From Candidatus Borreliella tachyglossi (GTDB taxonomy: Bacteria > Spirochaetota > Spirochaetia > Borreliales > Borreliaceae), in contig NZ_CP025785.1 of the NCBI RefSeq assembly GCF_003076595.1, forward strand, positions 588,398 through 652,397: DNA of 64,000 nt. The letters are read 5' to 3'. A program made the position numbers and the translations under genes. The notes beneath the pieces are model-generated. The model had not been told where the DNA came from, searched no databases, and saw only the letters and a list, made by a program, of their open reading frames with translations. Each line of letters starts with the position of its first letter. The first letter of the stretch is position 1. This document shows, piece by piece, positions 1 through 2,748 of the stretch.

Positions 1-1025
1 TACATATTAATTTTGTAGAAACTAGGAGTGATGCTGTGTTTTTTTATAACAATCATTTGTTATTTGAAACATCTATTTATAATTTTATTTATTCAAACTT
101 TTATAATATTGCCGTAAGTTTGTCAGTTGAACCTCTTAGTTATTTATTAAATCATATTAAAAATGAGTATAATATTTTTTTGAAGATTTTTGAGAGGATT
201 AATTTAAAAAATTCTATAATGAGAAAGTCATCTTCTATAAGTTTAAATAATAAATATAGTATTTTTGATGCGAGAAGAAAAGGTGTAGGATTTGCCTTTT
301 TAAATCTAGACTCTACCTTTTTAGGAAGCAAGCAAACTGTTTTTATGAGTTTGCATAAGGATAAATTGGATATATTTATTCCTTATAGTATGATAGATGC
401 TAATTTAATGAATTATTTAAGGAATACTTTAGCTAGGACTTTTAGGATATCTTATAATAGTGTAAATTTTATTGTTAGCGATGTCTTCAGAGATAATATT
501 GGGATTTATGATATATTGATCAAAGAATCCTATTTCATTGAAAGAGAAGTTTTGGCTTTAAAAGATAATCTTTTTTCGATAATTGGTGAAGATTTTAAAG
601 GAGAATATCCTGTTGTAGTTAACCAAGGCTTTATTTCGAATATGGATAATAGATTTAGTCTTGCATGTTCTCTTGAGATTGATGTAGAAATACATTCTTT
701 TAATGTTACATTTAGCAATGTAAGTTTTTTTGTTGAGCAGGGTAAACTTGTTAAGCTTAGATTAAATAATAAACGAGCATGTTCAGTTTTTAGCTTGGCA
801 GTTGACTATGTTTTTGGAAATATTAATTATGATATTGCTGATTCCTTAGGGCTTGATTTTATTGAAGATGGTGAGTTTGTGTTCTCTTTTAGGGGCTTAT
901 TTATTGCATCCGTTTCTGCAATTAGAACAGCTTTAATCCAAGTTTTTGACTTTAATTTAGGTAGTACTCCTATTGATCGTGAAGATACTTTAAATAGTTG
1001 GAGTGTACGAATTGATACTAATTAA
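1..1025 (+). CDS. Degenerate molybdenum-hydroxylase large-subunit-like protein (5' end outside window)
   Basis: The frame is open to the left edge (first full codon at 3), so the gene starts outside the window; the GTG at 36 is internal. It is usually called a hypothetical protein (BB0554 position). The order of motifs resembles the molybdopterin-binding subunit of xanthine/CO dehydrogenases: an xxLSVEPLSYLLNHIK stretch like the family's lgxDPxexRxxN, then ARRKGVGFAF like RGxGxA, a hydrophobic strand block, and a C-terminal FRGLFIASVSAIRTAL block followed by lP-x-pe-like STPIDREDTLNSW. Where the family has the catalytic GxGE, this protein has FSFRG, so the active-site Glu is missing. It overlaps the next gene. 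The fold assignment is my inference from pattern; a catalytically dead or repurposed homologue is likely. Confidence 0.6.
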   Translation, partial: HINFVETRSDAVFFYNNHLLFETSIYNFIYSNFYNIAVSLSVEPLSYLLNHIKNEYNIFLKIFERINLKNSIMRKSSSISLNNKYSIFDARRKGVGFAFLNLDSTFLGSKQTVFMSLHKDKLDIFIPYSMIDANLMNYLRNTLARTFRISYNSVNFIVSDVFRDNIGIYDILIKESYFIEREVLALKDNLFSIIGEDFKGEYPVVVNQGFISNMDNRFSLACSLEIDVEIHSFNVTFSNVSFFVEQGKLVKLRLNNKRACSVFSLAVDYVFGNINYDIADSLGLDFIEDGEFVFSFRGLFIASVSAIRTALIQVFDFNLGSTPIDREDTLNSWSVRIDTN

Positions 1026-1473
1026 CTTTAATTTAAATGGAGAAACTCTTTCAAAAAGCATAGGGCTTTCTTTAAGCACTAGAGAGCTTTTAATAAGTAT
1101 TTTTTATTCAAGAGAGAGAGGTTTCATTGAAAATATTAATAATAACTTTTCTTTGGTACTTTTAGATTGGAAACCTGTATATGCATCTTTAGTCCCAGCT
1201 TTTATGTTAAATGGTCGTAACATAGTGACTATTGATGGGTTAGAGAATACAGTCTTTTATGAGAATTTGCTTAAAGTTTTATTAAAGAATGATTTCGGGT
1301 TTTGTACAAATTGTTTCGCATCTAATGCATTATTATTTTACTATTTTTTAAAAAATAAGGTAATAATTAGAATGGATATTTTAGGATATTACAATACATT
1401 GAAGTGTCATTGTATTGATGTTAATACTTTTTTAGATCTTTATTTGCAATTAGAAGAGTTAGAGAGAAAATGA
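1012..1473 (+). CDS. Degenerate [2Fe-2S] small-subunit-like protein of the xanthine/CO dehydrogenase family
   Basis: A 153-residue protein in the BB0555 position. It reads like CoxS/XdhC: INFNLNGETL at the N-terminus, VLLDWKPVYASLVPAF and IVTIDGLE in the middle, then GFCTNC and KCHC. The C-terminal helical cluster motif is kept as C-x2-C-x30-C-x-C (Cys 98, 101, 132, 134; family spacing is about x31), but all cysteines of the N-terminal plant-type ferredoxin cluster are gone. I chose TTG at 1012 because GGAG at 1000-1003 lies 8 bases before it; GTG at 1003 overlaps that GGAG and is less likely. The gene overlaps its neighbours on both sides (the next ATG at 1470 overlaps its TGA), so the three are translationally coupled. 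Confidence 0.62.
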   Translation: MILINFNLNGETLSKSIGLSLSTRELLISIFYSRERGFIENINNNFSLVLLDWKPVYASLVPAFMLNGRNIVTIDGLENTVFYENLLKVLLKNDFGFCTNCFASNALLFYYFLKNKVIIRMDILGYYNTLKCHCIDVNTFLDLYLQLEELERK

Positions 1474-2333
1474 GTGGCACGAAAGTGTATTACCCAGAAA
1501 GCTTTAATGCACTTATTAGTTTGTTTAGGAAAGAGGCAAGCAATTATATCATTTATAATGAACTTGATTTTCATAAAAATTTTGAGATTTTTAAGGAGAG
1601 GGAAGTTTCTAGTAACTTTTTTCTAATTAATAATTTTGAAAGATTGAGAAAAGTTTTCCTTAAGAGTAATTTTTTAGAAATGGGGCCATGTGTTACTTAT
1701 GATGAAATATTGCAATTTGGAGAGAGAAACATTCCAAGGTTATTTTATGAATTTATTTCAAAATTGAATGATAAAATATATTTAAATAGTATTAATATTG
1801 CTAATGGTTTCTATTACAAGAATACTGTTTTTGATCTTTATCCCTTATTGTTAAGTCTTGATGCTCAGCTTGAATTTAAAAATATTTTAACTAAAAAAAC
1901 TTACACCTTGAACGCTTATAGTATTAATAGGGATGATTATATACAGAACCGCAATACTTTATTTTTGACCAAATTGAAATTTCCAATTACGAATTTGTGG
2001 AATAAGAGTTTTTATAGTAAAGTATTTGTTGATACTTTTTCGTTTGATATTTTAGAAGAGGTTGACATTATTTTTATTTGCGTGCTTTTGAATGTTAAAA
2101 GAGATATTATAAGTGATTTTTTAATGAAAATATTTTATGATGATAAAGTTATTACTTTAAGGGATTTTCAAGTTTTGCTTCTGGGTAAATCTTTGCCTTT
2201 TTCTCTATTTGAAATTGAAGATTCCCTTAAGATGCTAGATAAGAATATTCGAGATGCTAAAAACTTTAGTTTAGGCGAGCGGAACTTGAAGGTAGTAAAA
2301 AATTTTTATTTTGATATATTAGCTAATTTTTAA
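1470..2333 (+). CDS. Degenerate FAD-subunit-like protein of the molybdenum-hydroxylase family
   Basis: A 287-residue protein in the BB0556 position. Residues 5-172 follow the FAD-binding (PF00941-type) subunit CoxM/XdhB: YYPESFNALISL at the start, LINNFERLR, EMGPCVTYDEIL (family lxIGAxvTyxEi), YLNSINIANG (family iRNxaTiGGN), DLYPLLLSLDAQLEF (family Dx-PxLlaLdAxv), then TLFLTKLKFP. Residues 180-285 match the family's C-terminal lobe in length and in the LLGKSL region. The glycine-rich FAD loops are weak: the first is replaced by NYIIYNE and the second GGN is ANG. With the two upstream genes this gives the large-small-medium order seen in Cox-type operons. Role unknown; possibly a structural relic. 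Confidence 0.62.
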   Translation: MSGTKVYYPESFNALISLFRKEASNYIIYNELDFHKNFEIFKEREVSSNFFLINNFERLRKVFLKSNFLEMGPCVTYDEILQFGERNIPRLFYEFISKLNDKIYLNSINIANGFYYKNTVFDLYPLLLSLDAQLEFKNILTKKTYTLNAYSINRDDYIQNRNTLFLTKLKFPITNLWNKSFYSKVFVDTFSFDILEEVDIIFICVLLNVKRDIISDFLMKIFYDDKVITLRDFQVLLLGKSLPFSLFEIEDSLKMLDKNIRDAKNFSLGERNLKVVKNFYFDILANF

Positions 2334-2487: not shown

Positions 2488-2748
2488 ATGGTAAAAAAAG
2501 AAGCTACGATTAAAGCTATTAATGGCTTACATGTTAGACCAGCATCAACTTTTGTAAAAAGGGCTAAGGAGTATATTAGTGATGTCTCTATAGAGGCTGA
2601 TGGAAAGTCTGTTAGTGGAAAAAGTTTGTTTCGGTTGCAAACCTTGGAATTATCTGTTGGTAAGAAGCTTTTAGTTTGTGCTGATGGTGCTGATGAGGAG
2701 AGGGCTGCTAATGAGCTTGCCGAACTCATTGAATCTTTTAAAGAGTAG
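2488..2748 (+). CDS. ptsH: Phosphocarrier protein HPr
   Basis: An 86-residue cytosolic phosphocarrier that takes phosphate from enzyme I and passes it to the sugar-specific EIIA domains. The active-site His15 is in GLHVRPAS, and Ser46 lies in GKSLFRLQTL, where many bacteria phosphorylate HPr for regulation. Length and sequence are typical of the family. An AAGGGG sequence at 2471-2476 precedes the ATG. It is first of a tight ptsH-ptsI-crr cluster (15 bases to ptsI). I see no HPr kinase in the window, so regulatory use of Ser46 is open. Confidence 0.97.
   Translation: MVKKEATIKAINGLHVRPASTFVKRAKEYISDVSIEADGKSVSGKSLFRLQTLELSVGKKLLVCADGADEERAANELAELIESFKE

Follow-up and report, generated by a model that had tools for sequence, protein, structure and literature searches.

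The analysed window, a stretch of 64,000 nucleotides from Candidatus Borreliella tachyglossi, opens with three open, overlapping frames on the + strand, which fill positions 1-2333 and follow each other in the order large, small and FAD subunit of molybdenum (Mo) hydroxylases; their coordinates are reported in Table 1. The large-subunit gene begins 835 nt upstream of the window: the complete gene (L031:9564-11423) encodes 619 aa, the first 279 residues lying upstream and the last 340 inside. The small and FAD genes are joined through an ATGA overlap at 1470. About 150 nt 3' of the FAD gene lies ptsH, followed by ptsI, crr and htpG; ptsH is likewise found downstream of the trio in other Borreliaceae loci, and is not beside it in the other spirochaetes examined. 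Positions 2334-2487 form the boundary between the trio and ptsH; in the B. burgdorferi transcriptome, ncRNA0083 is listed at the bb0556/bb0557 boundary (PMC6117026).

Table 1. Features of the trio locus, in window coordinates.
Feature	Position	Strand	Remarks
Large subunit (formerly molybdopterin-binding), residues 280-619 of 619	3..1025	+	hhalign to spirochaetal relatives E 1.1e-10; Foldseek matches only to XO/AO large subunits (low-confidence model); no GGxFGGK or AFRG residues
Small (2Fe-2S) subunit, 156 aa	1003..1473	+	start GTG 1003 or TTG 1012
C101-x2-C104, first half of four-cysteine site (equivalent to the second 2Fe-2S site in Mo hydroxylases)	1303..1314	+	
C135-x-C137, second half of four-cysteine site	1405..1413	+	
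FAD-type subunit (287 aa), similar to PF00941, with degenerate FAD contact motifs	1470..2333	+	
ptsH (HPr), downstream neighbour, outside the trio	2488..2748	+	

From the downstream ptsH-ptsI-crr-htpG order and from the description given in the papers, we take the locus to be B. burgdorferi bb0554-bb0556. The initial annotation had treated the three genes as hypothetical, but they have already been described, under the names CODH-like or "xdhACB, putative xanthine dehydrogenase" (the latter in Phelan 2023), and peroxide, tick and mouse phenotypes have been published for them. Transposon mutants were recovered in both H2O2 and TBHP screens, by authors who also remarked on a limited homology with subunits of CO dehydrogenase (PMC5333916); bb0554 and bb0555 feature in a larval-tick screen (PMC6516651), and the role of the locus against ROS is summarised in PMC10566445.

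An intact orthologue of the FAD-type gene was found in all 36 Borreliaceae genomes searched, and in 21 out of 21 loci examined all three genes are intact and their order is unchanged. Median dN/dS, computed pairwise by NG86 and limited to pairs with dS 0.05-1, is 0.28 for the large subunit, the fastest-evolving member of the trio, 0.19 for the small and 0.14 for the FAD subunit, the value for the neighbouring ptsH being 0.083. Purifying selection therefore acts on all three genes, and the claim that the frames are open and the complex under selection held.

Homology of the trio and its spirochaetal relatives

Evidence of descent differs from subunit to subunit. The FAD subunit matches Pfam PF00941 as a single sequence (E = 5e-4), and the same family matches 15 out of 16 orthologues, with a best E of 2e-5. 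For the small subunit, a family profile searched against PDB sequences gave five matches, every one a Mo-hydroxylase small subunit (4zoh_C, E = 0.002); its structural model features a confident C-terminal domain, whose fold matches are again Mo-hydroxylase small subunits. Single-sequence searches with the large subunit found nothing among Pfam, NCBIfam or PDB sequences, so that its homology is established only through the spirochaetal relatives described below: in profile-profile comparison (hhalign) it matches them over residues 60-610 (97%, E = 1.1e-10), the corresponding E values being 2e-15 for the small and 7e-17 for the FAD subunit. Control comparisons with reversed, column-shuffled and cross-subunit profiles reached at best P = 0.08. 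The Foldseek matches of the large-subunit model at E <= 1e-3 are solely large subunits of the XO/AO family, but they are supporting evidence only, because the model is of low confidence (pLDDT 40).

All three proteins are thus homologous, collinearly, to the subunits of Mo hydroxylases, and by descent the trio is a member of the Mo hydroxylase (xanthine oxidase) superfamily. The initial annotation had read the three overlapping genes as large, small and FAD subunits in that order; this reading held, profile comparisons having returned matches for every subunit and fold searches for the small and large ones, with the reservation just made for the fold of the large one.

When 149 genomes of the spirochaete phylum were searched for MoCoBD_1, members of the same class turned out to have a divergent type alongside canonical enzymes. 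The small- and FAD-subunit profiles of Borrelia match the divergent type far better than the canonical one (for FAD, 4e-19 versus 0.008 or worse). In a tree built on small and FAD subunits Borrelia groups with the divergent type (SH-aLRT 99); its exact placement is unsure, the Borrelia branch being very long (3.26) and the canonical outgroup consisting of only two rows. Scanning 84,980 species genomes produced a list of 80 relatives, all titled spirochaetes, one of which is carried by a genome of 1.14 Mb, similar in size to that of Treponema pallidum. The scan relied on patterns from a close set, favouring near relatives, and restriction to spirochaetes is therefore unproven for very distant members.

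The relatives pass the Pfam cut-offs for MoCoBD_1, Fer2_2 and FAD_binding_5. None reaches an NCBIfam equivalog cut-off, even when well preserved (188.6 versus 830 bits), and therefore no named NCBIfam family covers them. The large-small-FAD order, with overlapping frames, is common to Borreliaceae and the spirochaetal family. The Borrelia trio belongs to a family of Spirochaetia devoid of the molybdenum pocket, which is newly described here; a limited search of the open-access literature found no paper on the spirochaetal trio family or on its operon.

In the relatives the usual gene order is a NusG paralogue, a nucleotide-sugar (NDP-sugar) 4,6-dehydratase (PF02719), a DegT aminotransferase (PF01041), then the large, small and FAD subunits, with overlapping frames. 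Among the 80 database loci, where the flanks could be tested, adjacency was found for DegT in 46 out of 66, for the dehydratase in 39 out of 59 and for the NusG paralogue in 35 out of 53. The DegT partners look like aminotransferases, because the PLP lysine is kept: a strict pattern finds it in 71 out of 86 proteins, the others reading FYANK...EGG. An E1-type (3-deoxysugar) role for this partner was dropped, the PLP lysine being present. Borreliaceae have no adjacent DegT or PF02719 dehydratase, and elsewhere in the genome only weak, partial and distant matches were seen, the DegT-like one being a SufS/NifS-type class-V aminotransferase. Gene neighbourhood leads us to infer that the trio may once have served an envelope amino-sugar pathway; against a sugar reading in Borrelia, no link to sugar chemistry is left in Borrelia itself.

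In two loci of another spirochaetal family (L166 and L173, family f53) the NusG paralogue lies directly 5' of the trio and both dehydratase and aminotransferase are missing, which makes this a second lineage where the trio persists without adjacent sugar enzymes.

Cofactor sites and cofactor supply

The molybdopterin loop, GGxFGG(K), was scored in two ways, on alignments and with an alignment-free pattern: present in 30 out of 30 canonical controls, it is missing in 16 out of 16 Borreliaceae and in 34 out of 34 and 78 out of 78 full-length relatives, these two sets of relatives adding up to 112 out of 112 large subunits. The arginine of AFRGxGxPQ, found in all 30 canonical sequences, is D or N in all 16 Borreliaceae, and is likewise lost in the spirochaetal relatives. 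As read from sequence alone, molybdopterin loop and conserved pocket arginine are lost across the whole spirochaetal trio family. Near the C terminus, the position of the catalytic glutamate (E1261 in bovine XO) is occupied by E in 15 out of 34 relatives; the Borrelia column is S, with an invariant GE a few residues off, in a region of uncertain local alignment. As the change in the large subunit is spirochaete-wide, the genome of T. pallidum size included, it is most likely older than Borrelia.

The electron-transfer sites have a different distribution. The plant-type 2Fe-2S cysteines, C-x4-C-x2-C...C, are found in none of 21 Borreliaceae versus 103 out of 105 relatives, and the two FAD contact motifs of PF00941 in none of 21 versus 94 and 86 out of 101. 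The second 2Fe-2S site, CxxC...CxC, is present in 21 out of 21 Borreliaceae and in 98 out of 105 relatives, with five more featuring a variant. C101, C104, C135 and C137 are invariant in the small-subunit alignment (A2); C101-x2-C104 aligns with CGxC of 4zoh_C and of canonical small subunits, and C135-x-C137 with CRC of the canonical ones. On sequence evidence, most relatives retain the cysteines of both 2Fe-2S sites together with the FAD motifs, and Borreliaceae solely the four-cysteine site. The claim that catalytic and cofactor residues are eroded held only in part: loop, arginine, plant-type cysteines and FAD motifs are gone, but CxxC...CxC is invariant.

Occasional relatives depart from this scheme. 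In one genome (G162; L097:8263-8802 and L152) the small subunit has neither 2Fe-2S cysteine set, while the trio frames are open and the operon complete.

Genes for molybdenum-cofactor synthesis are absent from Borreliaceae, as judged from genome sequences alone: MoaC and MoeA were found in none of 36 genomes, and MoaA had no match in any Borreliaceae genome checked in the class sample. This supports the earlier suggestion that Borrelia does not make molybdopterin. MoaA, MoaC and MoeA are also all missing from the genomes of 29 out of 34 relatives with full-length large subunits; the genomes of several relatives are incomplete (around 80%). Gene absence and pocket loss are imperfectly linked, since two genomes of family f50 (L115, L123) and a third one (G054, L099) carry canonical large subunits with an intact GGxFGGK and yet have no MoaA, MoaC or MoeA match. 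Many further f50 genomes feature several strong MoCoBD_1 matches without these three genes; in such genomes, the genes for the cofactor may have diverged strongly, or the cofactor may be obtained elsewhere.

B. burgdorferi has been described as not requiring iron (PMC3828560), and by 2017 no iron-requiring enzyme had been characterised in it (PMC5333916). Elsewhere in the genome under study (L262:3731-5531, on contig C1 at about 79.7-81.5 kb) a gene for a SufS-type cysteine desulfurase is followed by a SufU/NifU_N-like one, whose product retains the CGD motif and three cysteines. With both genes present, assembly of a 2Fe-2S cluster may be feasible in Borrelia. That the four-cysteine site carries such a cluster is inferred from the cysteine spacing and from these genes, no metal data being available.

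Proposed function and competing explanations

The trio is likely to be a complex that works without molybdenum and has been repurposed for redox chemistry or ligand binding, a reading not backed by biochemistry. Repurposing had been proposed in the initial annotation and is supported, but the change is family-wide in spirochaetes, not specific to Borrelia. In this reading, the heterotrimer would descend from a Mo hydroxylase and be unable to work as one. Its ancestor would have retained the FAD-2Fe-2S-2Fe-2S electron path, the substrate subunit having switched to other chemistry or binding, in the setting of an operon for an envelope nucleotide amino-sugar, with 4,6-dehydratase and aminotransferase. 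Borreliaceae would then have dropped the sugar enzymes along with most of the cofactor sites, leaving a streamlined complex in which two subunits form a scaffold around a single Cys4 site. A 2Fe-2S cluster delivered by SufS/SufU would probably be bound there, or else zinc in a structural role, and the complex might serve as a one-electron site or one that reacts with peroxide, or as a ligand-binding assembly, aiding peroxide resistance in tick and host.

Three-subunit Mo hydroxylases (CoxLMS, glyceraldehyde dehydrogenase 4zoh, PucCDE, XdhABC) have the same three domains, with fold and profile matches; the trio differs in lacking the molybdopterin loop and the pocket arginine, and its order is large-small-FAD. 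The selenium-dependent xanthine dehydrogenase (TIGR03311) is the best NCBIfam match of a relative's large subunit (L181, E 1.6e-55), but the relatives score about a quarter of its cut-off and have lost the pocket residues. An analogy, and no more, may be drawn with E1/E3 of 3,6-dideoxysugar synthesis, a nucleotide-sugar pathway in which a DegT-family enzyme similarly stands beside a protein with flavin and 2Fe-2S. E1/E3 is a DegT-fold dehydratase with an FAD/2Fe-2S reductase, and E3 is not homologous to the trio.

In its published form the name implies that the complex is active as a xanthine dehydrogenase, but the residues and the pathway required are missing at the Borreliaceae locus, and the name is probably wrong, a judgement inferred from residues and cofactor supply and not from biochemistry. 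A working xanthine dehydrogenase (xdhACB) using host molybdopterin would be in line with the published name and phenotypes, with gene order and with homology, and some spirochaetes endowed with canonical enzymes also have no MoaA/MoaC/MoeA matches. We nevertheless regard it as unlikely: Borreliaceae have neither molybdopterin loop, pocket arginine, plant-type cysteines nor FAD motifs, the pocket is missing in 112 out of 112 relatives as well, and no route for molybdopterin uptake is known in bacteria. Chance resemblance among unrelated AT-rich proteins could be invoked where single-sequence matches are weak or absent, but is practically ruled out by three independent, collinear profile matches, identical gene order and null controls.

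Two further explanations accept the homology. In a non-redox assembly the four cysteines would bind zinc, and the complex would be a scaffold or ligand binder, structural or metal-binding in nature. This remains possible, given a Borrelia described as needing no iron (PMC3828560) and the loss of FAD and plant-type cluster sites; against it stand the retained SufS and SufU-like genes, the invariant CxxC...CxC pattern of a 2Fe-2S site and the peroxide sensitivity of published mutants (PMC5333916). A decaying relic without function would account for the loss of most cofactor residues and for how fast the large subunit evolves (median dN/dS 0.28), but it is very hard to reconcile with genes intact in every genome examined, dN/dS well below 1 and mutant phenotypes in published screens.

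Our preferred reading, a repurposed molybdenum-free complex, admits a bolder version, which we put forward tentatively and would not ourselves favour at present: the trio would define an unnamed class of spirochaete complexes, in which the FAD and 2Fe-2S path is kept and molybdopterin chemistry replaced, involved in making an envelope amino-sugar, and shrunk in Borrelia to one four-cysteine site, which may be one of only a few iron-sulfur clients in a pathogen otherwise independent of iron. If molybdopterin was indeed dropped and the electron chain kept, this would be a rare change of active-site chemistry in a large redox complex across a bacterial class, and the operon would suggest an uncharacterised envelope-sugar step, also in a genome of T. 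pallidum size. As matters stand, the Lyme spirochaete depends, in both ticks and mice, on a locus whose name is contradicted by its sequence, and the trio turns the use of any iron-sulfur protein by Borrelia into a directly testable question.

In the T. pallidum-sized genome, dehydratase, aminotransferase and trio are clustered (L082:3264-9592); its small subunit no longer has the plant-type 2Fe-2S cysteines, a loss apparently separate from that in Borrelia, and CxxC...CxC and the FAD motifs are kept.
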